From NCBI GenBank assembly GCA_037447655.1, contig JBBHKE010002983.1, forward strand, positions 1 to 64,000: DNA of 64,000 nt. Direction: 5' to 3'. This document shows positions 31,933 through 61,271 of this stretch, piece by piece. The notes beneath the pieces are model-generated. The model saw only the letters and a program-made list of their open reading frames with translations. It was not told the DNA's origin and did no database searches. The first letter of the stretch is position 1; the number at the start of each line of letters is the position of its first letter. The translations under genes and the position numbers were made by a program. The stretch is from Zygnema cylindricum (Eukaryota > Streptophyta > Zygnematophyceae > Zygnematales > Zygnemataceae).

Positions 31933-33122
31933 TGTCATGCCGCATCTTGTCGGTCACTTTAATTGTTTATATGTAGGTGTTAGGACGGGCAGCCGCCACA
32001 CTAATTCGTATTTGGGTGTTATTTGGGTTTCGCAGGACCGTACCACGTGTAACGTACGGCCTATATTTCTCCCAATTTGCGTAATGACGATTTGGACCGT
32101 ACCCGCGGTCCTACCGTACGACATATATTTTCCGCGATTTCCGCCGACGGTGGATTCGATTGTTTCGCGTCGACCGTACGACTTACGTTGACCGGAATTT
32201 GACCGTTTCGCGCAAAGGAGCATCTTGATTGTCAATGCGAAAATATACAATTTCGAAAGGTGACATCTAGACTGTTGACGCATGTGACAGACAAAGCGAC
32301 TGTCAGTTCTGACAAAGCGACGTCATTGGACCATTTTAAGTCGTGAACCATTTGGAAGTTCATGCATTCACATGTAGATAGGAAGGGTTTTAATCCGTAG
32401 GTTATAGATTTTGTAACGTAGGGCATAGGATTTCGGCTTTCTATTGGCGAATACAAACTAGACGCAAATACTTACATAGCACGCTGTACTCTGATTGGCT
32501 TGTTCTCACTAGGCGTAGGTTTTGTTACTTAGTTCATTTCGGATCCTTTCTGCACACAATTTTCAAGTGCAGGAATTATTTATTTTCAGTATTGAGGATT
32601 TTGTGCAGCCATCTTTTTATTTGTAAAATTATTCGGACAGCTTAGAGGCAATTTTCTGCCTTTGGGTGAAGCGTCTAGTTTTCTATTACATTACAAATAT
32701 CTTGTAAAGCCTTACAAATTAATCTATACGGCCTCGGCCGAGACCTACACGGTTTTCCTTCACTTTTCTCGTCCTTTTGAGTGGATTTCGACCGCGTTCT
32801 CACGACACAAACTTCTTTTCTCGGTTGTGGCTGAGCTTTTATTAGTGTGGAAGTTGCATGTTGGGATTATTGATTTGTTGTTTTTATTTCTTGTGATTGT
32901 GTATTTATTTCTATTTGCTTATACGCATCTTTTGAGTTTGGCTATCTCAAACATCATAAGTGCCGGGCATATTGTCATTTTCAGTTTGTTATTTGTCTTT
33001 CTCGGTTGTTTATGCTTTGATTTGTTTTATTTAAGTATAAATTCAGATTATCCTTGATAAGGTAACCCCTGCAAGGAATATAAATAGACCGTGGGGCCTA
33101 GTGGTCATCCATCGCCTTAGTA
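31933..33122 (+). mobile_element. Left LTR segment of gypsy element (part B only)
   Basis: Matches 48033-49434 of the right LTR from TGTCATGCC to CTTAGTA, but lacks the first about 190 bp of that LTR. A TATAAATA box is at 33079-33086. It is shorter than the right copy because the right copy has extra subrepeats (about 48160-48380) of a 'ccgcgatctccgc' type. The two copies differ visibly, so the element is not recent. Confidence 0.75.
33079..33086 (+). promoter_or_regulatory. LTR TATA box
   Basis: TATAAATA about 36 bp before the end of the shared LTR segment, conserved at 49391-49398 in the right LTR. It is a probable Pol II promoter for the gypsy transcript. Confidence 0.5.
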
Positions 33123-34047
33123 TTCCTGCAATTGAAAATTGTCGTATTTTCTTTTTTCGCTTGTTTGTTTTTATTTCAATTTCGGTTTTCTTTTTATCTA
33201 AAGAAAAAAATAACAAAAACATTTAAAAAATCAAAAATATATATTTATAGATACATTTCTACAAAAATCTATAACTAGCTTGACATATATAATTACCATT
33301 TGCTTGTTAGTTGACGTTTTATCTTATTGGCCAATTTTCGGCCAACAATATACTACACTAACTTAAGTATTTGGTTTTTGTTTTCCCCATTTTCTTTGTT
33401 ATATATAAGGGGCATCGTTTGCTCACATTGAGACATACTTCACTAAGGAGTGGAGTTCGTGGAGCGGATCCGTTCTTGGGAGCTTTGCAAAACTTTGGTT
33501 GTAGGGAACAACCGCAGTTCACCGTTGGCAATCACCTGATTGCTAAGAGTGTTATGTAAGTATCACGATGCCCTGCTGGTACAGACGCGTGCTAAGGTAG
33601 TCGGTTGATTGTATAGAGGGATCCTGTTTGGAGTGGATTAGTGTTAATCCACTTGTATTGAGCATTGCATTTGTCCAGCTTTCCCTGGTTGCTATTTGGC
33701 CCTGAGTGGCCTTGGCTGAGTTTGCTTTGACCGAAGTGGGATTTCTTCCATAGATCTTGCCGTTCGAGGCATTGGTTAGCTCTTTTGTGGATTGTGCCGC
33801 TTTTGATCTGCACTTGGGGGTGCTTGGATAGTAAGTTATTGCCTTTATCGATCTGGCCCTTCGGCCTTGTCCCCTTGTTTGCAGGGTAAAAGGTTTTGGT
33901 AATACGGCTTCCAGAAAGATTTGGCCATCGAGGCCCTGTTAGAGATTGATTGGCTGATTGGACAAGAGAGTGGTGTGGCCTGGCATTTGAAGCATATCGG
34001 ATAGACCAGTTTTGTTTTCTGGTCATCATTTGGTGTTATCATTTTTT
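33123..34047 (+). other. Gypsy untranslated leader
   Basis: No coding signal. Another TATATAAGG is near 33403. I could not recognise a tRNA-complementary primer site immediately after the LTR segment. The frames seen on the - strand (33592-34042) do not resemble known proteins. Confidence 0.45.
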
Positions 34048-35433
34048 ATGCCCACCCATTGGGATAATCTTGATTATCCTGTCGAAACCACTCGATCGTC
34101 GGCCTCGTTTAGGCCCACAGAATCCGGACCATCAGATTTATCTAGTCTTTTGGACCATCCCTTCCTAAATATCTCGGGTCAAATTTCCCCTTCGGTTCGA
34201 TCTACTCTCACCTCGGTATCTTCCTTATCATCAGTGTCTTCCACATTTTTTGAAGAGGAATCTGACCACGATTCCCTTGACGGGTCGGATTCCAATTCAT
34301 TATCTTTTTGGTTTCCACAAATTACAAATTCATTAATATCCCATTATTGGAAATGGTTTCCACATCCGAGGGAGGGGGTCGCCTTCATTTTTGTTTTTCA
34401 AGAATGAAGAACACCATGACTTTATCACATTTTCGAATGCTATTCGATACTGAAATGCGTGATCTTCCATTTCGGTACCAAGATCGGTTCGACCTACGGG
34501 TCGCTTTCTCTCTTTTAGGCCATTACCTTCGCGGTTCAGCCATTACCCTTTATTTCCGCAAGTATGATTCCGTATTTGCAATGACAAAGTTTTCTCCAGC
34601 TTTCGCTGGGAGTCCAACTATTATAGGACAACCGGAAATTCTCTACCAACCGGCTATTCCAGAAGTCCTTGATCTCAACGGTGATGTTATTACAGCAGAA
34701 TTTGCGAAAATACCGCAGCAATTCGCTATAGTCGCTCGTGCTGAAATTCTAGCACGACCACCTATGACGATCCCTATATTGGATCCGCTCTCTGTCATGT
34801 TTGAAATGTGCAAGCGGAATACCGTATGCAAAATCCTGACAAAGTTCGTGAGTTAATGAACTTCGAACGTAAGTTAGGAGAGACCGCCCTTGCATGCGTT
34901 CTCGTATGGAAGCTCTTCGTGAAGCATTGCCAGACTTAATGTCGAATGTTGAAGCTGTCTAGAAATTTGTAGGATAGTTTTTGAGTCAGTCTAAGAAATT
35001 TATTCACAGTCACCTGACTGAAATGTACGGCTTGAAGTTCACTTTCGACCAAGCCGCCCAGCATGCCGTGGATTACGAAATGCAAAATTGTTGGTGGGAA
35101 GCCCATGACCGTCCTAAAGCAGTCCCGAAAGAACCGATTGTTCCAACATGGAACAATCCTCGTGCTAACAACCGGCCTTCTAAAATCTCGGCCATGGGAA
35201 CCCCACTTGTTGCTCCCGGAAACCGATTATGTTTTCGATGTGGGAAGACGGGGCATGATGCCCGAATGTGTCCAGACAAAACCGTTACCTGTACACATTG
35301 CAAGCAAACCGGACACTATGTCCGACGTTGTTATATAAAAAACCCAGAATTTTCCTATGAAAACCAAATTAAAAATGATGGCATTCCCGCTCGATTCGCA
35401 AAACCGGTTCAACCGGTTAAAGAACCGGAGTAA
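34048..35433 (+). pseudogene. Gypsy Gag with two zinc knuckles
   Basis: It starts at ATG 34048 with a Ser/acid-rich N-terminal region. A frameshift near 34370 leads into a capsid-like segment (about 34390-34850); another shift follows, with in-frame TAG codons at 34960 and 34975. From 34981 the frame carries two CCHC knuckles: C-F-R-C-G-K-T-G-H-(4)-C and C-T-H-C-(4)-H-(4)-C, near 35230-35335. Gag packages the element RNA. The stop at 35431 is followed in the same frame by continuing sequence, so the original Gag-protease frame was longer. Confidence 0.8.
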
Positions 35434-36240
35434 GACACCACTCCACCTAGGGTATCTCGAAGAGAGAGAGAGCGTTTAGAAATGCAAGAGCAAATGGCGG
35501 CTATGATGAAGGAATAATTCGCAGCCTTCATGACTCAAATGAAGCCACAATTTACACGTATGGCTCGCACTGTCGTACACATGCCCACGTTGGCAGGTCA
35601 AATCTTACGAGATTCCACCATCCAACATCAAGAGGCTACGTTCGACAAAGGTTCGACCGATCAGAGCCGTGACGGTAAAACTCCTAACACACGCATTCCT
35701 TTGTCATTCACTAAGGAACTTCCTTCTCCCTTGCCCGAAACCGCTTCAGCCATCCCGGCTGAAGCTCTCAACATAGTGGATCGAACTATATACGAGGCAC
35801 ACCGTGTGAAGTAACGCTGGGGCATTCTATCCACCATGATTTCCGAATCACCAAAAATCTCCCCTATCTCCTTTACCTCCGATAGCTCCGCTGCAGCTGC
35901 CGCGTTACAAGCACTTCAACTGCACATAAATCTTGCTGCTATTCAGCCTATTTTCATAACGGAGCGAAATTCTCTCGATCCTCATATCAGTTTTTTGGAT
36001 AACGGGAAGGGTGCATTGTTGATCAATGGTATAGCCCCTTCCTTTCCTCTCATGGATACGGGTGCAAAGCCGGTGATATTGGGCTCTAGCTTGGTCTAAC
36101 TCAGGACAAGCTTCAGTCCACTTCTACTTGTCAAGCTCGTGTGCTTCACAGGCACCCCTTTTATCTTACCAAGGATTCTCGGGCCTTTTTCCTCTGTACG
36201 GTCATTAAAGTACGGGGAAAAGAGCGCACTCAGCCAGACC
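35434..36240 (+). pseudogene. Gypsy Gag-protease linker and N-terminal half of protease
   Basis: Continues the frame of Gag past TAA codons at 35515, 35812 and 36097. The retroviral-type protease active site is MDTGAKPVILGS (36052-36087), with the catalytic Asp in DTGA. The frame shifts after 36099 (LGLTQDKLQ reads in another frame). The C-terminal half of the protease resumes only at about 38730, beyond inserted DNA. Confidence 0.7.
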
Positions 36241-37501
36241 AGATTCTTCTATTTTCTTAATTGAACGGAACGCGCTTTATTTCGCGCCTAACGGAGGCCG
36301 AACGACGGAGTTACTCCGTTCCAAAGATTACCATCCTGTTACATGTGACCAGTTGCCAACTGTCCCATTGGGGGCTACATTGGGGAACGCCACGTAACTT
36401 TTGGGATAGTCTTGTAGATTTTGCTGTTGGCTATCAGTAGGACGTTAGTTTAGGTCCACCAGCCGGGTAGAGTATTTATTAATGTGAGTGAAAGTTAGGC
36501 GTTTCACGTCAATTAGAACTTTGTTGCTCACGATTGTGTCATAGAAAAACTCGTGGCTTCTAATCTAGCCGGAGATAGTCGCCTAAATTTTTGCCTTGAG
36601 TGTAGTACAACCTGTTTTGTCTTATGTCTGTACGATAACAATTCCTGGCCGGTGATTGGCTCCTGGTATTGCTTTGACTTTGGTACTATCGGTAGGACAA
36701 ACTTTGCTTGTATAAGGCACTTGGGGCCGAGGGAGACAGGTTGCTGTTTCAGTACTGTCTCCTGAGAAAAACCCTAGAAATTCCAACAAACTTTCTTGTG
36801 GAGAACTTTTGTTTTGTATGTGATTGTGACCCTATTGCCATCTTGGTTTGCATCGTCCTTTGTGGAAATCGTAGTCCAGTTGGGTGGTTGGCACCGTCTT
36901 TCCTGTTTTGGGCGATTTGGGGACTGGTGTTTGTTGGAAACCAAGAAGGGTCTTGCCGGTTCCGGGTCGCGGAAACCGAGGAGTTAAGGAGGCCTTACCT
37001 ATTCCGGTGTTTTCAAGGGGAGATTTCGTCTCCTTTTAGGTTGTCCACGTTACGCTTTGGGGGTAGGTTCAGCTCGCTTGCTATTATTCCATATTCTAAC
37101 TTTATTCTCTATTTTTCTAAGGGCAAGGTGATATTGTTAATTCTGAGACAGCATTTTTATATTTCTATCGTTTCATTTTACTTAGTGGAAGCATCTAGGT
37201 TCTCTCTTTGGTAGTCCTTTTTGGGGCTCTGGTTGGGTTTCTTCCGGGGTCGATCACCAGAATCTTTTGTACCAGAATAGTGGATTTTGAGAGGATTTTT
37301 GTTAGGCTTCCAACAAACCGTCACAAAATTAAGGACCCGGCTCCTCCTCTAAGGATTCCCTAATTTCCTCCGGCCAGGAGGGGGAAAGAGAGGGGGGAGG
37401 GGATATCTTTTCGCCTTCCCCAATCACTCATCCCCACCTTTGCATGCATGCTCACAGGAACAAGGCGGGCAGCATTGGGCACAAGCATGGTTGTGGGGAG
37501 C
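36241..37501. other. Unassigned insertion within gypsy
   Basis: About 1.2 kb that does not read as gypsy protein. It has a TATAAGG at about 36710 and a purine-rich tract (37374-37401), so it may be an LTR fragment of another element. The frame 36708-37214 has no recognisable domain. Confidence 0.35.
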
Positions 37502-38729
37502 TGTTGATATTTGGGTATTTTCTAGGTCTTTATTAGATAGAAAAGATTAGAGACAGTGTGCCTCTGACTCCTTTCTCCAAGCCCCCACACTTGTTGTAGT
37601 CACTGAAGGCTGGAAAGGGAGCTAAAGCCATGGCTGCCTTAGCTCTCCAGAGAGACAGAGGTAGATAAATATAGATTTACTAAAAGGAATGTAGACAGAC
37701 CTAGGAATTGATCCTAGTACCTGCCGTCCGTCAAGCAATGCATAGCCGTTAGCTTTAGCCGTTAAGTCTAGTACTAGTGTTACGTGACATAGGGTTTGAA
37801 AACAATATATATAGTGATACGTAGAGTAATTCGTTAAACGGGAAATTGATTCTTAGTTCATAGATACAGTTTATTTAGTACGGAGTACGTTAGAGGGACG
37901 GAACGGATACCGCGCATTTGTTTCGATAGCGAAACAAATACCGCGCACCAACTTTCAACGGCTACAATTCAATGCCGAAATAAATCAGACGGCCGTGATT
38001 AGCGCCGACTACGCGAAAGGATGATTTGGCGGTTTGCGGACGTCACCACTCCGGATGACACGTGGTGACATCGTAGAGGTTGCGGAATCTCCGGAACGGA
38101 ACACAACAAATCCGGATGTGACAAATGTCACATTGTGGCAATATCGTACACTCCGTACAAAAAGTACTCCGGCACCTGTAATTTCTTGTACGGTACCGTT
38201 TACTGACGTGGCATAACCTGGCGCCACGTGGAGAGATAAGATTTGGACGCGGGAATTCTGGGGATTACAAGAGCGAATACGGATAAAACATGTGTTGACT
38301 TTTTAGCCGTGTCGTACGATGACCGTACAGAAGGTACACCGGCATTTGTACCTTTATGTACTATACACTAATGCGATTGGTCCGTACCTCAGTACTAGAG
38401 GGTTTAGAGAGGGGTTTAGGACTTAGAATAGCACCTTGTATAAATGGCAAACTTTGGCCAGCCATACCTATCAATTCAGTTGACCAAATTCAGTGATTCT
38501 TGTTGCTGCGGACTCACAGGAGTCCAGGCTACACAAGGGTGTAGTCGGTCAGAGTCTTTGCCTGCCTGGGTGGCTGCATTTCTTAGGGAAAGTCAAAGTG
38601 GGTGAATGTGTCCAAATCTCATATTCTAACTTTGCATTCTGTGGTGGAACTGAGCACAAAGAAAGTGTTAATTCACAAGGGTGAAGCTATATTGGGGTTC
38701 TGATTGTCAAGGGGTCAATCATTTCGGCC
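37502..38729 (+). mobile_element. Copia-like solo LTR, 3'-truncated
   Basis: Starts TGTTGATATTTGGGTATTTT and follows the 1180-bp LTRs (inverse of 45597 downward) almost to their end, stopping at '...ggggtcaatcat'. The last about 100 bp of the family LTR is absent, and gypsy protease coding follows. It includes the antisense tRNA-like block near 37695-37765. Confidence 0.7.
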
Positions 38730-39194
38730 ACAACCTTTGTTGAGATCTCGGTTCACGCTCTGGTCATTAAATGTAGTGACTATGAATGCCTAGTGGGACA
38801 GGAGGTTATATTTCGTGTAGGAGGTGGAGTTGACATGCATGATTAGACATTTTCTTATAGGCCCACTCACTTCCCGGAACGCAAAATCTGCATTCCGCTA
38901 ATTTCCGCTAGGAAGCCCATGCCTATTATGGCAAATCCGGCCACATCCATACCTTCATTTTGAAGGAATTCGGTGGGGGCCAAAATTTTTTATTCATTGT
39001 CAGTTAAAGAAATTCTGCCCGATTGTTCTTTCTTACCATAAATTTTCAGTGACCCATGTTTTCTTATAGATACGAGGGAATTTGACCGAATCTATAACCA
39101 AACCTTGTCAATTCCACTTTCTCCGGCCTCTCCTACAATCTCAGCCCCTACAGACTCTTTTAGGTTTCTTGTCATTAATTAGAATGCGTTCCAA
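38730..39194 (+). pseudogene. Gypsy protease C-terminal half and linker
   Basis: Reading from about 38728 gives VEISVHALVIKCSDYECLVG followed by a GGGVDMHD segment, which fits the second half of a retropepsin (hydrophobic strand, then Leu-Val-Gly before the C-terminal strands). In-frame stops occur near 38844 and 38956. The linker to the methyltransferase is about 300 bp and poorly conserved. Confidence 0.55.
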
Positions 39195-40251
39195 TTGAAA
39201 CCTCATCCAAATGGATTGGTGATTTTGGACCTTTTCGCTGGAATAGGCACTTCCCTCCTTGCATGTTTGCCGAATGGATTATTAATACGATTTTATTATT
39301 CGGTTTAGATTGTTCCGTTAGCATGGAAAGCACAATTACATCATTGTAATTTGTTGTATTCACAATACCCGCAATTGTTACCAAAATCCGCATACGAGCA
39401 TATGCATACCGCCCTCCCACAAGACATCCGGATTGTGGGCAACCATCACTTACAGGATATTGGTCCAATCGATCTAGTTTTTGGCGGATGGGAGTGCCAA
39501 GGAATGTCTCGGGCCGGGAAAGGTCTCGGATTAGCCGATCCCCTTACCAAATTATTTTTTGAATTGATCCGCATCCTGCATTTTCTACAAACTTTAGATC
39601 ATCCTATGGAGTATATCTTGGAAAATGTCGTAGCCTACAATGATTCAAGACCTACAGTCTTGGCTGATTATCAACGGATTGAACAATTAATTGGTCTGCC
39701 TCTTATTATTGACGCGGCTCGCCATGGCTCACTAGCACACCGGGTTCCCTCCAAATGGACAAACCTGATCGATATTGGTAGACTCCGTGAGGCCAACTCG
39801 TTAGTTCGTCCTCCTCCTACAGACATTCAGGCTGCCCTTCTTCCTTTCTATAAGGTGCAGTCTTGCATTTAAAAGGACTGTCCCCCTAATTCCAGTGTCA
39901 ATGTCTAGGGTCAACCTCTTAAGGTGCTTCCTACCTTAGTTTGGTACGCACATTCACATACATTCTCTAATGACGGTCTTAGCGTGCTCCGAAACATTCA
40001 TACCGGTGAGCTCAAAGAGCCTACCTCTACGGAACGAGGACTCCTCATGCATTTCATTCCTGGCACTACAGCCGCCCGGTCTTACAAAACGTCAAAGATG
40101 CGCTTTATTTGGTCGTGTCATAGACCCTCAGGCTTTGTCTTTTGTTTTAGGTCTCGAGTTTGCAGTTGGTTGCCACTTTCAAGCACATCCGACTCAACTA
40201 GCTGGGGGGGAGAATGCATCACTAAGAAAAATTTTCCGTCCCACTCTCTAA
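39195..40251 (+). pseudogene. Cytosine-5 DNA methyltransferase domain inside gypsy Pol
   Basis: The motifs are in the standard order. Motif I is VILDLFAGIGT (39219-39251), the S-adenosylmethionine loop. Motif IV is DLVFGGWECQGMSRAGKG with the catalytic Cys codon at 39495-39497 (the usual Pro before Cys is Glu). Motif VI is LENVVAY (ENV at 39621-39629). A motif VIII-like AHRVPSKWTNL follows. Motifs IX-X (ERGLLMHFIPGTTAA, then KRQRCALFG) lie near 40035-40125 across a frameshift. The ENVVA...P-IDA...AHR...W-NL spacing resembles DNMT3-type enzymes. Such enzymes methylate cytosine C5. It lies between protease and RT in the gypsy coding order, so it was part of the element. In-frame TAG at 39306, TAA at 39870 and a further TAG near 39907 mark decay. 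Capture of DNMTs by retrotransposons is known from charophytes and dinoflagellates, as I recall. Confidence 0.85.
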
Positions 40252-40409
40252 CGGACTACATTTCAATTTTTCCTCTTTCCTTCTCCAATTCCACCAGTTT
40301 CGAAAATCTCTATCTACGATTTCCTCAATCCTAGCTATATGTCCTGGTCTATTCCCACATACACGGCTGTCTAGTCTACAAGTCGCATGCATATTCCACC
40401 CACCCCTCA

Positions 40410-41355
40410 TTGGAGTGGTGCTTTTCCAACAAGCAGTTGGAATCATTCGGTAATTGCCTTAAACAGACACCTGTAGCTTACGAGTTAGGTCAAAGGCTTA
40501 TCACAGATGAGCAGTTGGCCTTTGCACAAGCCATGGAAGCTATGACAACCGAAAATTTCGATGCTCCTAAATGGAAATTTGGCACCAATCTAACAAAGGC
40601 CGAACAAGAGTTATTGAATGACGTAGTTTTACGAAATATTGATGCCTTTGCCTTTTCTATGAACGATTTGGGTCCTCACACCGCTTATAAGATGTGGATA
40701 GATCTCGAAGATGATCACCCTATATTTAAAATGAAACATCGTTTGTCACAAACTAATCGGAAATGGTAGACAAGCGATGTGCTAAACTAGAGGAAAGGGG
40801 CCTAAGCTATCGGTCAGACTCCACATTTGCAGCTCCCACTGTCATGCCCTGGAAAAAGGATTCCGAGGGTAATTTTAGTGAACATCGAATGTGTGGTGAC
40901 TATCGTGAACTAAATGTAAGAACGGTTCAAGATCGTCATCCCATGCTTCTTGCCGAAGAAATATTTGATCACATAGGCGGAGCAAAGTATTTTAGTATCC
41001 TTGACCTCCGTCAAGGATTCAATCAAATTGAGATAGAGGAAAAACACCGGCATAAAACTGCCTTTTGGGGTAGCGATGGCGGATGGGAATGGGCCGTAAT
41101 GCCATTCGGACACAAAGATGCTCCGGCAGTATTTCAAAAAGTCATGGACTCCGTTCTTGGAGGCTGTAAGTTTGCTAGATGTTACATCGATGACCTCATC
41201 ATTGCCTCGGCTACTATTGAAGAGCATGCTGCTCACATCGAATGGGTATTGACTGAATTGAAAAAGGTTGGATTAAAATGTCATCTAACGAAATGCACCT
41301 TTGGAGCCGAGAGAGTGCGTTACCTCGGCCATTTTATCTCGGCTGAGGAGATCAC
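40410..41355 (+). pseudogene. Gypsy reverse transcriptase (first part)
   Basis: The N-terminal pol segment (40410-40769) is followed, after a one-base shift near 40760, by the RT fingers and palm. Visible motifs are FSILDLRQGFNQIEI, MPFGHKDAPAVFQKVM and the catalytic CYIDDLIIAS (near 41185). The frame stops at the ATCAC target site (41351-41355), where the gag-only LTR element is inserted, and continues at 45603. Confidence 0.9.
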
Positions 41356-42535
41356 TGAAATTCTATGGGCTCCATTGCCACACAGAATTCGCAGGTCCAA
41401 AGGAAGCTAATCTAGATAGTGCCGAATCCAACTTGATATAAACCCAAATGATTGACCCCTTGACAATCAGAACCCCAATATAGCTTCACCCTTGTGAATT
41501 AACACTTTCTGTGTGCTCAGTTCCACCACAGAATGCAAAGTTAGAATATGAGATTTGGACACATTCACCCACTTTGACTTTCCCTAAGAAATGCAGCCAC
41601 CTAGGCAGGCAAAGACTCTGACCGACTACACCCCTGTGTAGCGTGGACTCCCCTGAGTCCGCAGCAACAAGAATCACTAAATTTGGTCAACTGAATTGAT
41701 AGTTATGGCTGGCCAAAATTTGCCATTTATACAAGGTGCTCTCTGTGATAGGCAGCTACTTACCAGAAATATTCTAAGTCCTAAAACCCCTCTCTAAGCC
41801 CCTTAGTACTAAGGTACGAAAAAATAAGAAGACTGTAAAGTACATAAAGGTACAGGTACCGGTGTACCTTTTGTACGACCATCGTACGATATGGCCAAAA
41901 TGTCGACAAATGCCATATCCAAATTTGTTCCTATTATCCCCGGATATGCCGCAAGCCAATGTAATGTTGCCACGTGTCAATTGACGTGGCGGTGACCGCA
42001 AACTGCCAATAACATATTCCGCGATTTCGATGTTTATCGCGGCAGTCAGATCTAGACTGGCATTCAATTGTAGCCGTCGAAAATTTGTGCGCAGTAATTG
42101 TTTCGCTATCAAAACAAATGCGCGGTATCCGTTGTGTCCCCTTATCGTACTCCCTACTAAACGAAACGGTATCTATGCACTAAGTATATATTTCCCATTA
42201 AATGAATTAGTCTACGTGTAACTATTTATATAATTATCAAACCTTGTATGTTGTAACAGTATTCTTAGATTTAACGGTTAAAGCTAACGCCTACGGGTTA
42301 CTTGAGGGACGGCAGGTACCAGGATCAATTCCTGGATCCGTCAACATTCCTTTTAGTAAATCTATATTTATCTACACCTGTCTCTCCGGAGAGCTTAGGC
42401 AACCATGGCTTTAACTCCCTTTCCATCCTTTTGTGACTACAACCAGTGTGGGGGCTTGGAGAAGGGAGTTAGAGGCAGACCGCCTCCACTCTTTTTCTAT
42501 CTAATACAGACCTAGAAAATACCCAAATATGAACA
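41356..42535 (-). repeat. 3' LTR of gag-only element
   Basis: On the - strand it begins TGTTCATATTTGGGTATTTT and ends ATAGAATTTCA; 1180 bp. It also carries a copy of the Gag start codon region at its end. Confidence 0.9.
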
Positions 42536-43198
42536 CTCCCCTTATTTTCTAGTCTACTTCCTTTAAACTCTTACAAACAAAATAAACAAAACACTCCTTA
42601 CCCTTTTTCCTTTTTTCTTTTCTTTTTCCTTTTATATAACTTAAGAAAAATACTATCGTATTTAAAACTATGCATTAGATGAAATGAAATAATAATTGCA
42701 TCACACATTTCATTTAGCATCCCACTTATCATAAATCAGAGCAAAGATTTTATCCACCTCATCTCTTTTCCATCCACACTAAATCCACTTTCCCTCTTGC
42801 AATTCAAACAACCAGCCCCATCTCCAATCTGCAACACACACCCTAAGGCTAACCCTTTTACAGGCACACATTCATAAATGTCATCACTCCCTTTAGTGAT
42901 GTCAAACCCAATACCCCCAAAACATGAACTTTCCTCACTCTCTCCCATGGATTTCTTTCCACTCACTTTCTAAATTTATTCCCAATCAATATTTCTCCTC
43001 CCCTAAACCTTTCATTAAATCTTTCTCTTCTTCCTTATCCTTTAAAACCCCTTCTAGTTTCACTTCTCTCCTTTCCTCGGAATCCGTTAAAGTCTCCCTT
43101 TCCGACCAGTTTTCTAATTCTAAAATACCTATAAAATTATCCTCATTAATTATTTTTCCTGTTTTCACTTATGGATCCTAGATCTGACTTTCTTATTT

Positions 43199-44443
43199 CT
43201 AAGTCATACACTTTACACTCCTCGACATCCTCAAGTAACTTCTCTCTCTTACTTCCCTTATACCTCCAAAAGCACACTGTTTCCTTCGTGGAATTTCAGT
43301 GTACTTTTCTCTCTTCTCCATTCTACCGATGTGAAGAAGCTCCAAGATTTCTTCATCCTCTTTCTCGTTTTCCCCTTCTTCCTCCTCATTCACACTCCAA
43401 CTTCTAAGTTCTTCCAAACGAGGATACTCCTCCATATGGTAACCTAGTTCTCTACAAAAGAAGCAAACCCCTTTTTCCAAAACTCCCAGTTCTTTTCTTC
43501 TCCCTCTCTTTCCACCAAAGTTCCGATAAGGTTTACCTTTGTCTTTATTCCTCTCATCACGCTTCCGCTCATCACCGCCGTTCCTCTCATTACGCTTCCG
43601 CCAGTCACCACCAGCTGTAAATGCAGTCACCCTCTCACTTCCCCTACGAAGCTCCAAGGTGCTTTCCCTCATAAGTATTATCCCCATGGTGATGCTCCAA
43701 GTCCACGAGGAGCCATCCATTCCCTGCATACGGTAAATGATGTCTTCGTACTCATCTGGGAGTTTCATGATTAGTGTATCAATCTTTCTCTCCTCAGTTT
43801 CTACATATCCCGCACTAGTAAGCTCAACATATAACGCTGCAATATCATTGCAAAACTCTATGATGCTACCGCCTTTATAAACATAGGTCTCTATTTCTTG
43901 TTTTACTAACTGCTGCCTCTGTATAGTCTCACTCTTATAAATCTGAATTATTTTTTCCCAGATTTCCGAAGACTTGATTAGACTTAAAAGAGTGATAGCT
44001 ATGGACTTAGACACATATCTAAGTATGAGATATTTTGCTATAGTGTTTTAATATTTCCAAATTTTCCTATCATTTTCTTCAGTTTTTGGTGTTGTTATAA
44101 TCCCCACAAGTGGAACCATAGCCGACAGCCTAGCTCCCCTCACCATAGGTGTCCCTTTATCCTTCTCCCCTATTTCCCTTTCCACGAAAATGATTTTCCC
44201 TTCACCTTCCGTTGCATCTGAACTCACGTTGGTTTTCTGGGCAGCCTCAGATGATTCTCTATAGTGAGCTCCTCCAAAGCTCGGTGGCGGACACCTCACT
44301 TGTCCTGAAACAATTCCCCATAAGTGCTTCTCGAAAAGCAATCCCTCCATGTTAAACTCACAATAACTGAAGTTTGTTCCATCGAACATAGGCACCCTAA
44401 ATGGTGGGCCCATAACCTGAAATTCTATGGGCTCCATTGCCAC
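43199..44443 (-). pseudogene. Copia-like Gag (UBN2 type) of gag-only element
   Basis: A 415-codon frame from ATG 44443 with one in-frame TAA (44048-44050). The first nine codons lie in the 5' LTR, and the primer-binding site is translated. The core has FCNDIAALYVEL and LIMKLPDEYEDIIYRMQG blocks. A basic region follows, then a zinc knuckle CFFCRELGYHMEEY in which the last Cys is replaced by Tyr, and an acidic tail. Gag would assemble particles and package RNA. It ends about where the related copia-3 polyprotein enters protease, consistent with deletion of the whole pol region. The remainder to 42536 is short, broken, Ser/Glu-rich sequence without a known domain. Confidence 0.8.
44401..44417 (-). 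promoter_or_regulatory. Primer-binding site, half-tRNA-iMet type
   Basis: Directly after the 5' LTR on the - strand is GGTTATGGGCCCACCAT. The first 13 bases complement the anticodon stem-loop region of initiator tRNA-Met, the arrangement known for Drosophila copia. The copia-3 element has the same site with one change (AGTTATGGGCCCA at 31083). Confidence 0.7.
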
Positions 44444-45597
44444 ACAGAATTCGCAGGTCCAAAGGAAGCTAATCTAGATAGTGCTGACTCCAACTTGATA
44501 TAAACCCAAATGACTGACCCCTTTACAATTAGAACCCCAATATAGCCTCACCCATATGAAATAACACTTTCTTTGTGCTCAGTTCTACCACAGAATGTAA
44601 AGTTAGAATATGAGATTTGGACACATTCACCCACTTTGACTTTCCCTAAGAAATGAAGCCACCCAGGCAGGCAAAGAATCTAACCGACTACACCCATGTG
44701 TAGCCAAGACTCCCCTGAGTCTGCAGCAAAAAGAATCACTGAAAATGGTCAACTGAGTTGATAGTTATGGCTGGCCAAAGTTTGCGATTTATAGAAGGTG
44801 CTCTCTGGGAGAGGCAACTACCTACCAGAAATATTCTAAGTCCTAAAACCCCTCTGTAAGCCCCCTAGTACTAAGGTACGAACGAATAATAAGACTGTAA
44901 AGTACATAAAGGTATAGGTACCGGTGTACCTTTTGTACGACCATCATACGATATGGCCAAAATGTCGACAAATGCCATATCCAAATTTGTTCCTATTATC
45001 CCCGGATATGCCGCAAGCCAATGTAATATTTCCACGTGTCAATTGACGTGGCGGTGACCGCAAACCGCCAAAAACATATTCCGCGATCTCGGCGTTTATC
45101 GCGACCGTCAGATCTAGACCGGCATTCAATTGTAGCCGTTAGAAATTGGTGCGCGGTATTTGTTTCGCTATCGAAACAAATGCGCGGTATCCGTTGTGTC
45201 CCCTTAGCGTACTCCCTACTAAACGAAACTGTATCCATGCACTAAGTTTATATTTCCCGTTAAATGAATTAGTCTACGTGTAACTATTTATATAATTATC
45301 AAACCTTGTATGTTGTAACAGTATTCCTAGACTTAACGGTTAAAGCTAACGTCTACAGGTTACTTGAGGGACGGTAGGTACCAGGATCAATTCCTGGATC
45401 TGCCAACATTCCTTTTAGTAAATCTATATTTATCTACACTTGTCTCTCTGGAGAGCTTAAGCTGCCATGGCTTTAGCTCCCTTTCTAGCCTTAAGTGACT
45501 ACATCAAGTGTGGGGACTTCGAGAAGGGAGTTAGAGGCAGATTGCCTGTACTCTTTTTCTATCTAATAAAGACCTAGAAAATACCCAAATATCAACA
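44418..45597 (-). repeat. 5' LTR of gag-only element
   Basis: 1180 bp, TGTTGATATTTGGG to ATAGAATTTCA on the - strand. It contains an antisense tRNA-like block (about 45330-45405) with a perfect T-arm-like stem (cagga...tcctg). Confidence 0.9.
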
Positions 45598-45602
45598 ATC
45601 AC

Positions 45603-46292
45603 TCCTCTCGAAGCAAAGGTAGAGGGAATCAATAAATTGCCTGCTCCCACAGACCTCACAAGTCTGCGAGCCTTTCTCGGACTTGCTAATTATTATTGCA
45701 GGTTTGTATCTAATTTTAGCACCATCGCATCTCCGTTAAACGACCTTCTCAAGAAGGAAGTGGAGTTTATATGGGGTCTGGATCAGATTTCCGCATTTCA
45801 TAAATTAAAAACCGCTTTATCGAGTGCTCGAATTCTTCGTCCTTCCAATCACAAACTCCATTTTTGTCTCCAAACAGATTTTGGGAAACCCGGAATCGCT
45901 GCCATTTTGACACAAAGAGAGTTGAGCGGAGAGGAATACCTAGTTGCTTACGCGAGTAGAAGCAATAACCGGGCTGAATCAAATTATAGTAGGTACGAAG
46001 GAGAGTGTCCAGTAGCGGTTTGGGGTGTCGTTCACTTCCGCCATTTTTTGTACGGAAAACCTTTCACACTCCTAACTGACCATCAGCCCTTACATTGGCT
46101 AATGACAAACGATAAGCTTTCCGGGAAGCTAGCCTGATGGGATTTAATCTTACAAGAATATGACGTTGATATAACTCACCGACCCGGTCTGCTTAGTCTA
46201 AACGCAGATGGAATTTCCCGAAATCCTTTGCCCCGAACAATAGATAACGGAGTTCGACAGGATTTCGATGACGACGATGTTCCCGTCATGTG
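45603..46292 (+). pseudogene. Gypsy RT thumb and RNase H (continuation)
   Basis: The frame resumes in phase after the ATCAC duplication: LRAFLGLANYYCRFV (RT thumb/connection), then the RNase H-like region with LQTDFGKPGIAAILTQ, CPVAVWGVVHFRHFLYG and LLTDHQPLHWLM. An in-frame TGA at 46135-46137 interrupts what should read on as WDLILQEYDVDITHRPG. It matches Ty3/gypsy RT-RNase H organisation. Confidence 0.88.
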
Positions 46293-46359
46293 AATTGGTT
46301 CTTATCTTACTCACTGCCTGGCGTCTATTCCGAACCCCGTCCTGCCACAGATCCTTGGC

Positions 46360-47534
46360 GTGATGGGGCTCTCATTCTTTTCCTATCCTCCTAGACCTTC
46401 ATGTCCGACACTACCTCTGACAAAGAAGACAGAGTTAAAAAAAAGGGCCAAAAGTTACCTTTGGCTCGGGGGATCTTTAGTTCGGTTGTTTGTAGACGGA
46501 AGCCATAGGCACGTTCCACGGCCCACCGAGCGTCTTTCTCTCATTGAGCAAATTCACACTGATCTTGGTCACTACGGTACCAAGCAAACGTTAAGTCTAG
46601 TTCAGGCACGGTATTGGTGGTTAGGAATGCAAGCTGATGTCGCTGCTATAGTACACAAGTGTGCCACCTGTGACCGTCTCCGAACTTTTTCTCTAATCGG
46701 CAGACTACGCTTCAACCTCTTTCCATTAAGGGTTTATTCTATTGATGGTTCGGTCGATCTGGCCGAATTTTTTCCCATCTCACGTAGAGGGAAACAATAC
46801 ATCATGATTATGATCGAAAATTCAGTAAGTGGGTAGAAGTCGTAGCCCTTCCTCATTAGACAGCTAAGTTGACCACCGCAGCATTGAAGGAACATGTCCT
46901 TATGAGATACAGTGCACCACCCGAGGTCCTTACGGATCAAGGTACAGAATTTCGGGGAGAATTTCAAGAGATGCTTGATGAGGCTCTCATCGATCATCGC
47001 CGTACTAGTCGGGATCACCCCCAGGCCGATGGCCTGGCTGAACGGGCAGTCCAGACATTTAAGCGTGCCTTGCGTAAGCATTGCTTATAGAAACACATTT
47101 CGGTTTGGGACGAGTCCCTCGGTTACATTACCATGGGATATCGCATGTCAGTTCAAGCTAGTCTGGCTAATTTCAGCTCGTATTATGTTTTATTTGGACG
47201 ACAACCGTTGCTCGGTTGTAATATTCAGAAAGTTGCAAGCTTTCCACTTCCGTTGATGTCTGACACTATCTTTTTGGAAGAACTCACTCGTCGTGCTTTG
47301 CTTTTTGCCCGTGAAATGCCCATGGCTTTTGATAACCTGCAGATTGCCCAGCATCGGGACACACTTCGGTTTGCCACCACTCGAAGCTCCAGTTATAGGC
47401 CGCAACAGAAGCCCTATCGGGTGGGAGACTATGTTTATCTTCATAGGCAATCTTTCGACCTTTTGGACACTAATGATTTTGCACACATCCTAAGGATCAT
47501 TGAGGTGGATCCGAATGGAATGTTGGGATTATAA
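46360..47534 (+). pseudogene. Gypsy integrase, frameshifted
   Basis: The zinc-binding HHCC module reads HTDLGHYGTKQTL...HKCATCDR (46556-46680). The catalytic core shows SIDGSVDLAEFFP (first Asp), VLTDQGTEFRGEF (second Asp, 46925-46965) and DHPQADGLAERAVQ (Glu). A one-base deletion near 46825, TAG at about 46858 and 47086, and TAA at 47532 break the frame. Integrase joins element cDNA to host DNA. After the TAA the same frame runs into the PHD finger, so the two were one polypeptide. Confidence 0.85.
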
Positions 47535-47597
47535 GGAGCGAACACACGGACTTTTCGAGAGCACTCCAAGAATTGTGCTCCACGTTACTTAACTGAT

Positions 47598-47825
47598 TTG
47601 TCGCAAGATATGGATCCTATGCGGATGCCAATTACGGAGGGGACAACATGTACCTTTTGTCATCGATCGGACGGGGAAACTACCATGTTACTTTGTGATC
47701 ATTGCAATCAGGGGTTTCACATGGAGTGTTTGGTGCCACCATTGTTGGCGGTTCCGGATGGTCACTGGTTTTGCCATGGATGTCGCGAGCTTCCGGTCGT
47801 GTTGGTCAGCTCCTCTGCCAGCTAA
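47598..47825 (+). pseudogene. PHD finger at the C-terminus of gypsy Pol
   Basis: A complete Cys4-His-Cys3 pattern: CTFCHRSDGETTMLLCDHC, then QGFHMECLVPP, an aromatic GHWFC and HGC. It lies in the same frame as the integrase, 21 codons after the TAA at 47532, and ends TAA just before the G9 purine tract. PHD fingers generally read histone H3 tail marks. By analogy with the chromodomain of chromoviruses it may steer integration; this is inference. All eight metal ligands are intact. Confidence 0.85.
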
Positions 47826-47831
47826 AGAGTT

Positions 47832-47841
47832 GGGGGGGGGA
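47832..47841 (+). promoter_or_regulatory. Polypurine tract of gypsy element
   Basis: GGGGGGGGGA directly before ATAAACC, after the last pol codon. Its position sets the start of the right LTR at about 47842. A similar G-run lies at about 40204-40213 after the methyltransferase region. Confidence 0.55.
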
Positions 47842-49434
47842 ATAAACCGACCTAACCATAACCAGCTAAGTCGTTGACCTTTCTTTTTCTACCTTGCCTG
47901 TTGTTATATTTATTCATTTTTCTCTTTCATGTCTTATTTCATTCACAATATATTTTCATCATTTGGGTTTAAGTGGAGCACAACTGGTGACATTGCGTGC
48001 ATCTTCACGTTATTTGACACATGCACGACAGTTGTCATGCCACATCTCGTCGGCCATTTTAATTGTTTATATTTAGGTGTTAGGTCGGGCAGCCGCCACA
48101 CTAATTTGTCTTTGAGTGCTATTTGGGTTTCGCAGGACCGTACGAGTAGTACATTACTACATATAGTTCTCGAGATCTCCGCGACGACTTGTACTGTACA
48201 ATTTATTCTTTCCGGGTATTCCGACGACAGTGAATCGTGCCGTTTCGCGTCGACCGTCTTTAATTATTTTTCCTAGATTTTCCGCCGACGACTCATTTCC
48301 GAATTTACGTTGGTTCAAATAAACTTTCCGTACCATATACATCTTCCGCGATCTCCGCTGACGGTGGATTCGATTATTTTACATCGACCATACGACTTAC
48401 ATTACCCGGAATTCCCGCGACTACAAATGGGACCGTACCTTCGGTCCTACCGTACCTACAGTCCTACCGTACCTACTTTCATTTCTCGAAATCCCGGCTG
48501 ACGACAATTTTGAATCATTTCACGCGAGGGAGCATCTCGATCGTAGATGCGGAAATATACAATTTCGAAAGGTGACAACTAGACCATTGACGCGTTTGAA
48601 AGACAAAGCGACCGTCACTTCTAACGAAGCGACGTGATTGGACTATTTTAAGTCGTGAACCATTTGGAGGTTCACGCATTCACATGTAGATAGGAAGGGT
48701 TTTAATCTGTAGGTTATACATTCTGTAACGTAGGGCATAGGATTTTGGCCTCCTATTGGCTGAATCCAAACTAGACGCAAATACTTATATAGCACGCTGT
48801 ACTATGATTGGTTTGTTTTCGCTAGGCGTAGTTTTTGTTACTAAGTTCTTTTAGATTATCTCCTGCACACAATATTCAAGTGCAGGAATTATTTATTTTC
48901 AGTATTGAGGATTTTCTGTAGCCATCTTTTTATTTGTAAAATTGTCCGGATAGCTTATAGGCGATTTTCTGCCTTTGCGTGAAGCGTCTAGTTTTCTATT
49001 ACATTATCAATATCTTGTAAAGCCTTACATATTAATCTATATTGCTTCAGCCAAGACCTACACGGTTTCCCTTCACTTCTCTCGTCCTTTTGAGTGGAAT
49101 TCGACCGCGTTCTTACGACACAAACTTCTTTCCCCGGTTGTGGCTAACTTTAATTAGTGTGGAAGTTGCATGTTGGGATTATTGATTTGTTGTTTTTATT
49201 TCTTGTGATTGTGTATTTATTTCTATTTGCTTATGCGCATCTTTTGAGTTTGGCTATCTCAAACATCATAAGTGCTGGGCATATTGTCATTTTAAGTTTG
49301 TTGTTTGTCTTTCTCAGTTGTTTATGCTTTGATTTGTTTTATTTAAGTATAAATTCAGATTATCCTTGAAAAGATAACTCCTGCAAGGAATATAAATAGA
49401 CCGTGGGGCCTAGTGGTCATCCATCGGCTTAGTA
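47842..49434 (+). mobile_element. Right LTR of gypsy element (parts A+B)
   Basis: From ATAAACC after the purine tract to CTTAGTA, 1593 bp. Part A (47842-48032) is missing from the left LTR; part B matches 31933-33122. A TATA box is at 49391-49398. The terminal dinucleotides are not the usual TG/CA. Confidence 0.65.
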
Positions 49435-49627
49435 ATAAACCGGCCTAACCATAACTTACTAAGTCGTTGACCTTTCTATTTCTTTCACCTTGCTTGTTGT
49501 TATATTTATTCATTTTTCTCTTTCATGTCTTATTTCATTCACAATATATTTTCATCATTTGCGTTTAAGTGGAGCACAGCTGATGATATTGCATGCATCT
49601 CCACGTTATCTGACACATGCACGACAG
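49435..49627 (+). repeat. Extra copy of LTR part A after the right LTR
   Basis: 193 bp, ATAAACCGG to ACGACAG, a near copy of 47842-48032. It ends exactly where part B would begin and is followed by copia-3 Gag. With the left end starting at part B, the inserted block runs B...A-B-A. Confidence 0.8.
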
Positions 49628-50372
49628 CCCCCAAAGGGTATTTCTCATTTTTGCAAAAGCCGGGACACTTCATAGCAGATTGTGTCAAGCAGTCGGAGCT
49701 GAGGCTTCAAGAGAATCGTGGAGGGGGTTCTTCCAGAGGGAAAATAAGGCACTTGTGGTCACAAAAGTTAAAGGAGAAACCGAGTTTGAGTCCTCAAAGG
49801 AGGAGGATGGGGAGCTTCTTCTTGACGAGAGTTTGGAGGAGAAGGTGATCCCTTGGAAACATAAGTGTGCTCTCGGAGCAATTTAGGAAGCTCCACAGGG
49901 AGGATGGATCATCGAATTAGGTGCATCTATGCACATGTGTCGTGATAAGCACCTCGTCACTAAGCTAAGAAAGATCCCAACTGTAGAGATAAAATATGGG
50001 GATGGGAGAGTGGTTACCACAGATCTAGTGGGGTCGGTAGATCTGAAAGTCTTAGTGGAGGGTAAGAATTCTATACTCACCTTCTCAAATGTACACTACA
50101 TTCCTCAGCTGAGTAAAAATCTTGTCTATTCGTCTGTGTTAGATGACAAAGAGTTTGATACCTTCACTAGAAAGGGAGTCTTTACAGCTAAGAATAGGGA
50201 TGAATTCAACGAAGTACCTATATTGGCGAGTACTTATGGCCGGATACTTGGAGGAGAAAGGACTCCTACATGTGGTCGACAGCTTCTTCTCACGAATGGC
50301 AAAAGCACCGGTTGAAGAGGAGGTTGGAGAGAAAACTGTAAGCAAAGGGAAGGCTGAAGCATCCTCTGCATT
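49628..50372 (+). pseudogene. Copia-like Gag end and protease (copia-3, continuation)
   Basis: It begins with a degenerate zinc knuckle (QKPGHFIADCVKQ). At about 49899 comes a protease segment GGWIIELGASMHMCRDKH, in which the catalytic Asp-Ser-Gly is Glu-Leu-Gly, so it is inactive. LVEGKNSILTFSNVHYIPQL and LDDKEFDTFTRKG follow as expected for copia proteins before integrase. A frameshift occurs near 50240. It stops at the tandem repeat near 50373; no integrase or RT of this element follows. Confidence 0.75.
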
Positions 50373-50718
50373 TTCTAGTGAGGTAACGCTAGAAAACATA
50401 AAAGTAAAAAACATTTTATTTACATGCATTAATGAAGACACAACTGTAACATGCATGCAGTTTTTGATTGGAATAAGAGTTAATCGAAATGCTCTCACAA
50501 TTACATAAATGTCTCAATGAGGAAGCGAAGTTGAAATTCTGCATCTTCTAGTGAGGTAGCGCTAGAAAACATAAAATTAAAAAACATTTAATTTGCATGC
50601 ATCAGTAAAGATATAACTTTAACATGCATGCGGTTTTTGATAGGAATAACAGTCAATTGGAATGCGCTCACAATCACATAAATGTCTTAATGTGGAAGCG
50701 AAATTGAAATTATATCAA
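50373..50718. repeat. Two tandem 173-bp units
   Basis: Units 50373-50545 and 50546-about 50718 begin ttctagtgaggtarcgctag and share most bases. Their origin is unknown; they may belong to the neighbouring copia LTR. Confidence 0.8.
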
Positions 50719-52752: not shown

Positions 52753-52928
52753 AAATCACCTCGCGAGGTGATTTCAGTAGAAGTTTGAAGATGAGCCGGA
52801 GGGACGCAAAAGTGGGTTGAAACGCGCTAAAGACAAACTGCTGTACATTTAGAGTTTCAAAGTGACGCAAGTTGTACATATAATATCATTTTTTTTGTAC
52901 AGCTGCGGAAATTCTCCCTGCGAGCTAA
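52753..52928. other. Right arm of inverted pair, starting with 22-bp palindrome
   Basis: aaatcacctcgcgaggtgattt (52753-52774) is a perfect palindrome. The following about 150 bp is a diverged inverse of 24565-24749. Confidence 0.7.
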
Positions 52929-53702
52929 GGGTATGTCCCCATGTACATAAGTAAGGGTTTTTTTCTGTCGTTTTGTTGTCTTAGCGCCGTACTGCCTAAA
53001 TTCCGACCGTACGAAGGAATATCAAATCTGTAATGTACAATTTGCGTCATCCTCAATCTTAGGATTTACGAAAATTTGTCGTCTTGTGTTTTTCGACCCA
53101 CTTCGACGACAAAAAATGTCATCTTCAACCTCATGATTAAAACACATGCGCGATGTGTTTTAAAATTAGGGATTTTATTTAAACAAATAGGAACATATAT
53201 TCGCACGTGCCGTGATTTTCAAAAATTTTCAAACGATTTCAAGCGACGTGGAAATGTACACGATTCTCTATGTTTTGTCTGTTTTTGTTTAATACAACAA
53301 AGAGAAGTACACAGTTTGTTTTGTTTTTTCCATTTCCATCCGGTACAGATTTTTTTTTTGCAGGGGTCTCAAGGTTCCGCTGCCATTTCACGTCGAACCG
53401 ACAATAGACGCAAAGGCAAAGCGCCTCTCCTTCAATCGTGAAACGGCACAGGGTGGAGGGCGGTAGGTGTACCATGTCACGAAAAGTCACGCGACGTCAC
53501 AAGCCGTTACGGAAAATAACGCGCGTCATCACAGATTTTAGACGTTGACAGCTGTCACGGGAATTGTCAGCGTATACAATCGTCACACCCTTAAGTAACA
53601 ATTTCGGTGTTACACATAGGGACACTTGAAATCCGGGTCCGCCGGATCTGCGTTAAAAAACAAAGTAAGTTCGCTAAGTTTCAAGTACATGGGGACATAC
53701 CC
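52929..53702. mobile_element. 774-bp TIR element, GGGTATGTCCCC family (copy B)
   Basis: Inverted ends GGGTATGTCCCCATGTAC / GTACATGGGGACATACCC with an exact TAA duplication (52926-52928, 53703-53705). It shares its interior with 5437-6213. The GGG start and TAA target suggest PIF/Harbinger ancestry. It has no transposase. Confidence 0.85.
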
Positions 53703-53705
53703 TAA

Positions 53706-54364
53706 GTTTGGGGGGAAAAAAAGCCATTTATTTATCACATAGGAAAGTGCTCTTAGCTGCAGTTACATGGGGTTGTACACCCCCGTTGTTGGGTAGTCTT
53801 CGATCTTTGACCGCCCGCGGCCAAGCCCTCGAGACGACTTTTATTCTTTATTTTTGTTTTACACACGTGCACCATAAAGGACAATCTGCCGGCGAAACTA
53901 TTGAAAAAGTACGTACTGCCTGCAGAAGTTTTGTACTTCTCAATCGATATAAAAATTTTAAACGTTTTCCTGCGGAACCAAACGAAATCCAGAAAATCCT
54001 GCGAAATCCAGACGACTGCCGTGATTCTTACGCACAGTGGTCAAATATCATTGGCTACCACCTGTACGTCTGGATATCCTCGACATCCTCCACGTCAGCA
54101 TATTAAAGTCTTTTCAGACGGCAGCCAGCAACCTATTCCGTACAATATGCACAGTCTTCCACAACTCACACCACCGACAATCCCGCGAGAGACCTCGACG
54201 CTTTCATATTTAATCCCAAACCTTCCTAGAAAAAAAAACCGTGTTCTTCGCTCCTCTTCAACTCTCCCCTCTCTCTCTCTCTCCTCCTCCTCCATTCTTC
54301 TCCGCCATTTCCTTCAGAAAATCCTCATATTGACTCTCTCCCCTCTCAAATCTCTCCTTCCTCT
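53706..54364. other. Upstream region of the cysteine-rich gene
   Basis: No coding family recognised. A CT microsatellite (about 54262-54300) and pyrimidine-rich sequence precede the ATG at 54365 and probably form the 5' leader. Confidence 0.5.
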
Positions 54365-60564: not shown

Positions 60565-60888
60565 TAGGTGAAAGCCATGGAATGGGAAGGTGAGGAAGAG
60601 GAAGGTGGATGGAAGGAAGGCTCAATGGATGCGAAATTAATTGAAGTGGGCGCTGGATTAGTTGATCTGCTCGAGGTGAGGGAGAGGGGGGTTGAAAATA
60701 TGTTGGTAGAGGAAGAGGGTGAAGAAATGTATGGTGGTTGTGCGTGCGTGTTTTGCGTATAATTTTGGAACTATATATAGGGGATAGGGTTTGCGTTTCA
60801 TAGGAGTGAGAGTAGTAATGTTATAGGGGTCACACTAGTGGTTTCGCCAATGTGCGTGCTGTTGGCTGCGGCTGCAGGCCAGATCCGG

Positions 60889-61228: not shown

Positions 61229-61271
61229 AAAGTATCGGTTATCAGCATATGTCTACCGATACACAACACTA

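Follow-up and report, generated by a model that had tools for sequence, protein, structure and literature searches.

The closest described system is KnitGypsy-Dnmt3 of Klebsormidium nitens, a gypsy LTR retrotransposon whose Pol ORF includes an intronless Dnmt3-class domain (de Mendoza et al. 2018, PMC5890265). As described there, the family combines gypsy domain content with DIRS-like repeats and has several copies with Ka/Ks under 0.2; its methyltransferase domain produced no methylation in yeast, a result that the authors call inconclusive. The same paper describes SymbioDIRS-Dnmt3 of Symbiodinium, in which a Dnmt3 domain in Pol is accompanied by the DIRS plan of split repeats, A-coding-B-A-B, and CG methylation in yeast was obtained with two distant copies, as well as DIRS elements with a Dam-like adenine methyltransferase, which likewise unite split repeats and a methyltransferase within a retrotransposon (PMC5890265). 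In a 2025 survey, retrotransposon-borne Dnmt3 in streptophytes and dinoflagellates is mentioned as earlier reported (PMC12344493). Our literature search found KnitGypsy in one paper alone and no paper combining Closterium, Dnmt3 and retrotransposon.

Here we analysed a stretch of 64,000 nucleotides (hereinafter the window), in which an initial annotation made from the sequence alone had proposed a cytosine-5 DNA methyltransferase domain at 39195-40251, captured in a Ty3/gypsy Pol. That annotation pointed to earlier reports of retrotransposon DNMTs in charophyte algae and dinoflagellates, and the Klebsormidium and dinoflagellate elements bear this out (PMC5890265). Going by the published description, to which our comparison is confined, KnitGypsy-Dnmt3 equals the window element in repeat plan and domain content, and the kind of element is thus already known. 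The present elements differ from it in forming two subfamilies (with WECQ and WPCQ catalytic loops), in having a PHD finger (the word PHD is absent from the main text of PMC5890265) and in showing a palindrome where B meets A and, in some copies, short target duplications. SymbioDIRS-Dnmt3 is similar in its Dnmt3 domain and A-coding-B-A-B repeats; it belongs, however, to the DIRS class and encodes a tyrosine recombinase in a separate ORF, whereas the present elements have a gypsy integrase. The Dam-like DIRS elements also use a tyrosine recombinase, and their enzyme is unrelated (PMC5890265). What appears to be added here are members in Closterium and in the present genome, a subfamily with the ECQ loop, a PHD finger, the palindrome at the B/A junction and short duplications, some of which may be in print elsewhere. 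Taking the analysis as a whole, we consider it very probable that this is a gypsy Pol with a Dnmt3-type enzyme that belongs to the element and is kept by selection; its split repeats would be cut at the B/A palindrome.

Judged by its domains, the host element is a Ty3/gypsy-type retrotransposon spanning 31933-49626 of the window. It reads, in order, A1, gag, protease, methyltransferase, reverse transcriptase (RT), RNase H, integrase, PHD finger, G-rich tract, B1, A2 and B2 (Table 1); the polyprotein domains thus stand in gypsy order with a gypsy-type integrase, and the protease is recognized by its motif alone, there being no Pfam protease match in that region. In place of two conventional LTRs the layout is A-coding-B-A-B. 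A1 and A2 are 88% identical over 1189 aligned bases and 91.5% identical over the 3' part (K2P 0.13 and 0.09, respectively), and K2P between B1 and B2 is 0.07. The gag and knuckle pieces of a better preserved copy from the same genome (locus L025, see below) align at 34015-34974 and 34978-35421. For the integrase, the Integrase_H2C2 match is clear (E 3.8e-16), and the rve match (E 4.2e-4) falls under the cut-off in the broken window copy. An Rfam scan gave no matches at gathering scores.

Table 1. Features of the retrotransposon in the window and of the insertions within it (positions in the window).
Feature	Positions	Strand	Evidence
Repeat A1, left end; begins TGTCATGCC; TATAAATA at 33079	31933..33122	+	repeat comparison with A2
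Gag remains, two CCHC zinc knuckles	34015..35421	+	zf-CCHC E 2.9e-8
Protease region with LMDTGA	35443..36093	+	L025 piece 58%; DTGA read in sequence
Relic of repeat A of the sister element (family 2), inside element	36129..37168	+	72-74% to A of L012, L018, L020, L023, L024
Solo copia LTR, inverted and related to that of the nested copia	37495..38727	-	79-83% to 41443-42541 and 44505-45597
Linker, protease to methyltransferase	38724..39221	+	L025 linker piece 58%
Dnmt3-type C5 cytosine methyltransferase, loop GGWECQ at 39483-39500	39222..40149	+	Pfam, PDB, profile, L025 alignment
Linker, methyltransferase to RT	40150..40754	+	L025 piece aligns
Reverse transcriptase	40760..41362	+	RVT_1 E 4.7e-27; 86% to L025
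Nested copia, LTRs 41356-42538 and 44418-45597, TSD ATCAC, gag inside	41356..45597	-	LTRs 92% identical
RNase H	45610..46326	+	RT_RNaseH_2 E 3.8e-25; 78% to L025
Gypsy-type integrase (H2C2 zinc binding, rve core, C-terminal part)	46408..47531	+	68-76% to L025
PHD finger, Pol C-terminus	47535..47822	+	PF00628 E 1.1e-11
G-rich tract directly before B1, polypurine-tract-like	47832..47840	+	sequence
Repeat B1, ends ...CACGACA	47842..48030	+	93% to B2
B1/A2 junction GACAGTTGTC, one base from family palindrome GACAGCTGTC	48027..48036	+	sequence
Repeat A2	48033..49434	+	repeat comparison
Repeat B2, right end of element	49435..49626	+	repeat comparison

The methyltransferase was identified in several ways. 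A Pfam scan matched PF00145 at 39309-39869 on the forward strand (E 4.6e-9; score 36.6 bits, curated cut-off 22), within the interval 39219-40125 where the initial annotation had expected such a match. When the 2013 six-frame pieces of the window were searched with a profile of four methyltransferases from Closterium retrotransposons, there were only three matches at E <= 1, at 39309-39869 (E 3.9e-26), 39909-40331 (0.018) and 39183-39305 (0.09), which are collinear and keep the motif order. The open domain of L025 covers 39222-40076 at 72% identity (E 1e-137) and, in a second alignment, 40075-40149; on this basis we place the domain bounds at 39222-40149; the segment first annotated thus does contain the domain but is wider than it. 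Cytosine-5 methyltransferases share a set of numbered conserved motifs, of which motif I reads FAGIGT (39234-39251), motif IV GGWECQ and motif VI ENV (39621-39629); the catalytic Cys of motif IV and the C-terminal motifs are in standard order, the C-terminal part being frameshifted in this copy. The motif order and the position between protease and RT on the same strand, as first annotated, are therefore upheld by the profile match and the L025 alignment.

Among 43 sequences at E <= 1 in a PDB search, the best solved relative was DNMT3A (E 3e-11), followed by DNMT3B (2.5e-8), HaeIII (4.7e-4) and DNMT2 (0.12); by these ranks the enzyme is classed as Dnmt3-type, nearer DNMT3 than DNMT1, DNMT2 or the bacterial enzymes. 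We rejected an identity with DRM (rearranged Dnmt3), as the order here is I-IV-VI-...-X, lacking the DRM permutation. A protein search with the window methyltransferase piece yielded 101 candidates, none at E <= 1e-3, and none of 21 pattern matches in an IMG/VR scan was confirmed.

The window copy itself is, to judge from its reading frame, dead: the domain is interrupted by three in-frame stops (39306, 39870 and 39906) and shifts frame near 40076, and the element has been broken by nested insertions. Two of the later insertions, the family-2 A relic and the solo copia LTR, fall in the gap between protease and methyltransferase, and the latter has no clear target duplication at its ends. The enzyme that the initial annotation saw is present; the stops, the frameshift and both gap insertions are corrections to that reading, which did not mention the PHD finger or the split repeats. 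Inside the nested copia, the interior of about 1.9 kb has a gag (Retrotran_gag_2, E 1.1e-11) and no pol was seen; it is perhaps a non-autonomous, gag-only element.

With just one such enzyme-bearing element seen in the window, and that one full of later insertions, a fragment of a host methyltransferase might have landed by chance in a single gypsy copy. We searched the window's genome (352.8 Mb in 2689 contigs) for further copies. Of 782 candidate PF00145 matches 123 were scored, and 10 kb was taken around each of the 20 best-scoring. Nineteen of these 20 loci carry the same type of enzyme, with a forward RT downstream in 15 of the 19 and a PHD match reached in 10; of the four fetched stretches lacking a forward RT downstream, L011, L013 and L027 have none and L028 has one on the opposite strand only. 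The twentieth locus (L017) has no match to the element's enzyme type and resembles what we take to be a host gene of another, CMT-like class. Four loci (L014, L015, L025, L026) are of the window type, 70-75% identical to it in the domain (family 1), and the other 15 form a sister family, about 40% identical to the window domain (family 2). A second set of 20 domain stretches, picked by a match shape resembling family 1, contained the enzyme in every case, 19 belonging to family 1 and one (L060) to family 2. In L022 (3456-9837) two family-2 methyltransferase-RT segments lie in the same orientation within 7 kb.

In L025 the matches from zinc knuckle to PHD finger lie in one frame, inside an open frame of 2395 amino acids, and in L016 those from methyltransferase to PHD finger are likewise in one frame. 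Since this type of enzyme is present in 39 of the 40 fetched stretches, and is followed by RT in 15 of the 20 long ones, the methyltransferase is best read from these sequences as a lasting part of the element and no stray insert. Together with the in-frame enzyme of L025 and the presence of related enzymes in Closterium Pol proteins, these recurring copies refute a chance insertion, whose probability we regard as negligible. The capture by a gypsy Pol that was first proposed thus finds corroboration in genomic copies of the same order and in Closterium; copies of the family uniformly lacking the segment, which would have marked it as a later insert, are not what the genome contains.

The families differ at the catalytic loop. 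ECQ is found in all 24 family-1 copies examined, the window included (L060, as a family-2 member, is outside this count), and WECQ in 22 of them, the two others reading stop-ECQ (L014) and SECQ (L015), while all 15 family-2 loci have WPCQ. To our knowledge the Pro of the PC dipeptide before the catalytic Cys is normally invariant; family 2 has it at 15 of 15 loci, and family 1 has Glu in its place at 24 of 24. The initial annotation had left open whether this copy or its subfamily was altered, and looked to copies with an intact ECQ or PCQ loop for support: both loops exist, and it is the subfamily that is altered, not the window copy alone.

Selection was assessed in family 1 on the six of 24 copies with open domains. 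For 11 of their 15 pairs pS is 0.78-0.82 and pN only 0.10-0.14; the remaining four are close pairs, with pN/pS of 0.16-0.32. In family 2 the median dN/dS is 0.25 for the methyltransferase (18 pairs) against 0.12 for RT, the enzyme being less constrained than the RT; this estimate used nine of the 15 methyltransferase loci and nine RT loci, leaving out stop-bearing copies (1 and 3, respectively), pairs that were saturated (every one involving L028) and those with dS <= 0.02. Selection has maintained the catalytic Cys, ENV/ENI/ENL and the motif-I region. Because ECQ is present in 24 of 24 copies and pN is low relative to pS in the open ones, the Glu is, on the evidence of these alignments, a kept trait of the subfamily under purifying selection rather than decay.

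What the enzyme does is a separate question, and family-1 enzymes could be inactive or altered through the replacement of Pro by Glu. One may consider another job, such as RNA methylation, non-catalytic nucleic-acid binding (in the ECQ family 1) or modification of host chromatin near new insertions. The ECQ in place of PCQ throughout family 1, the ECQ or DCQ in all three Closterium proteins that reach the loop and the link to chromatin suggested by the PHD finger speak for this, as does the inactivity in yeast of KnitGypsy-Dnmt3, in the report's own words inconclusive (PMC5890265). Against it stand the selection on the catalytic Cys, ENV/ENI/ENL and the motif-I region and the WPCQ retained in the sister family. 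We consider such a job unlikely, though it keeps an appreciable share of the probability, and prefer DNA methylation on behalf of the element, as set out below.

The named nearest RT relatives of the window element are from Closterium. In Closterium NIES-53/54, seven proteins (P0012 and P0060-P0065) have a related methyltransferase directly upstream of RT, with an identity of about 29-38% over most of the domain. Three of them (P0061, P0062, P0064) match PF00145, whereas P0012, P0060, P0063 and P0065 comprise the C-terminal part of the enzyme and RT, the RT of P0060 lying under the cut-off. Two of the three proteins that reach the loop have WECQ and one WDCQ. In a tree of RTs limited to rows with some 110 or more aligned residues, the window groups with P0001 (100/98); the backbone of the tree is without resolution, so it does not show whether there were one or several acquisitions. 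The methyltransferase tree, flagged for long branches and with only two phage enzymes as outgroup, unites family 1 and Closterium (85/85); translated, the two phage enzymes are distant relatives with a PCQ loop. From these sequence comparisons, the ECQ loop of family 1 and Closterium is likely shared by common descent. An AlphaFold model of P0061 (7 sequences) was poor, with a mean pLDDT of 35, and was set aside.

The split repeats recur together with the enzyme. A repeat of 191-243 bp (B) follows the PHD finger and reappears 0.9-1.7 kb further on in seven of the 20 loci; of the three PHD-reaching loci without a second B, the L015 stretch ends too early, and L016 and L029 carry B1 but read A-coding-B. 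The upstream A1 was found in L025 (100% identical to A2 over 931 bp), L024, L018 and L012 and partially in L023, and was not found for L020 and L026 in the upstream stretches taken. Genome-wide, 40 of 334 candidate B matches were scored, of which 14 form same-strand pairs 1.5-2.1 kb apart on seven contigs; one further pair is 3.8 kb apart, and on C46 and C2158 an A lies between the B pair. It could still be asked if the arrangement is an artefact of ordinary LTRs rearranged in the window copy, which, taken alone, has many lesions. The recurrence of the plan in both subfamilies, in L025 with its identical A1 and A2, in the B pairs of seven contigs and in the Klebsormidium family as published (PMC5890265) refutes this reading, which we hold to be extremely improbable. 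L016 and L029, read with L040-L043, are family-2 copies with A-coding-B, no second A-B adjacent and no target duplication. In L012 (8091-10000) a G-run and a B-like start follow B2, and the region is repeated in tandem at 71%, which may reflect a nested insertion or one in tandem.

GACAGCTGTC stands at the B1/A2 junction in six of ten cases (L012, L020, L024, L025, L026, C1811) and one base off in the other four (L018, L023, the window, C46), the junctions of C1811 and C46 having been sought by pattern where the A and B matches place them. The elements end in TGTC...GACA, and a G-rich tract lies at or just before B1 in the seven own-genome copies read. At the A2/B2 junction L025 retains three G of this tract, as a ligated end would. 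Among eight copies with both ends read, two have exact 4-bp target duplications, TTGG in L025 and ACGT in L018; L024 and C1811 show duplications of 3 bp, in the window three of four positions match, and none was found in L012, L016 and L029. L025 and L018 also have the most similar A1 and A2 (100% and 98%) of the five copies measured, and simple arithmetic puts the chance odds of two exact 4-bp matches among eight at about 4 in 10,000.

Split direct repeats are a hallmark of DIRS/PAT elements, here coexisting with a gypsy integrase. The repeats might arise by replication of the DIRS/PAT type, with an element-spanning RNA and ends restored from the internal B-A, and hence no cutting of a two-LTR-like circle. 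Such a route would fit the A-coding-B-A-B layout, the published DIRS plan (PMC5890265), and the lack of a TGG-type primer site in the first approximately 18 bases after A1 in the window, L025 and L024. It sits poorly with the gypsy integrase, the G-rich tract abutting B1, the TG...CA-type ends and the exact 4-bp duplications of two copies, and no tyrosine recombinase was matched among the Pol pieces scanned against Pfam. We therefore judge it improbable, if still a serious contender, and favour cutting by the integrase.

Under the favoured mechanism the methyltransferase was probably acquired once, before the subfamilies split, and would most likely be made within Pol and packaged along with RT and integrase. 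With the G-rich tract immediately ahead of B1 and the internal region after A, the repeat unit set by reverse transcription would be B-A. The gypsy integrase would then cut a DNA intermediate, circular or head-to-tail, at the palindrome GACA(GC)TGTC between B and A, with a short target duplication, giving an inserted copy of the form A-coding-B-A-B; a head-to-tail DNA cut at this point would explain both the layout and the TGTC...GACA ends, and the structures above are consistent with it. The A-coding-B form of L016 and L029 could come from a one-unit circle or from later recombination. The enzyme would most likely methylate the element's own new extrachromosomal DNA before or at integration, which the PHD finger probably steers by reading histone tails; the initial annotation had envisaged that the ancestor of the window copy might methylate its cDNA or its insertion sites.

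More speculatively, and as an idea that we hold to be rather doubtful, capture of a methyltransferase may go with split-repeat replication in general (DIRS with either a Dam-like adenine enzyme or a Dnmt3 enzyme, the Klebsormidium gypsy and the present gypsies, all with A-coding-B-A-B repeats), the enzyme acting on extrachromosomal, perhaps circular, DNA, with the integrase cutting inside the repeat at the B/A palindrome and family 1 and Closterium using a new, selected ECQ loop.

The surroundings of the element contain further traces of mobile DNA. By eye, an older copia gag appears to enclose the whole gypsy element, with the gag in its left flank and the zinc knuckle of that gag in its right. 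A further GACAGCTGTC site at 53547, beside a repeat at 52928-53703 that resembles 5436-6214 (79%), is possibly the relic of another split-repeat element. An open frame of 275 codons at 54230-55054, cysteine-rich and by eye with a secretion-signal-like stretch, has no Pfam match. Short tandem duplications are present at 50365-50711 (174 bp) and at 60881-61230, the latter forming an array whose shift is about 70-140 bp.

The PHD finger bears on the gene content of the host. PF00628 had 984 candidates in the genome, of which 150 were scored, many of a uniform length of 135 bp, that of the window included. In the published account of Zygnema cf. cylindricum SAG 698-1a, the PHD class is at least 9-fold larger than in other strains, and Copia elements make up 29.8% (PMC9915684). 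If the host is Zygnema cf. cylindricum, transposon copies could explain the PHD class reported there, and transposon-borne PHD and methyltransferase copies may more generally inflate host gene counts.

These elements extend the retrotransposon Dnmt3 beyond Klebsormidium to Closterium and to the window's genome, which suggests a partnership older or more mobile than the one described in PMC5890265. That a gypsy integrase occurs with DIRS-like split repeats, and in some copies with short target duplications, calls into question the usual pairing of repeat layout with integration enzyme. Moreover, the natural WPCQ and WECQ sister subfamilies offer a ready comparison of the need for the Pro of the PC dipeptide and of the role of the enzyme.
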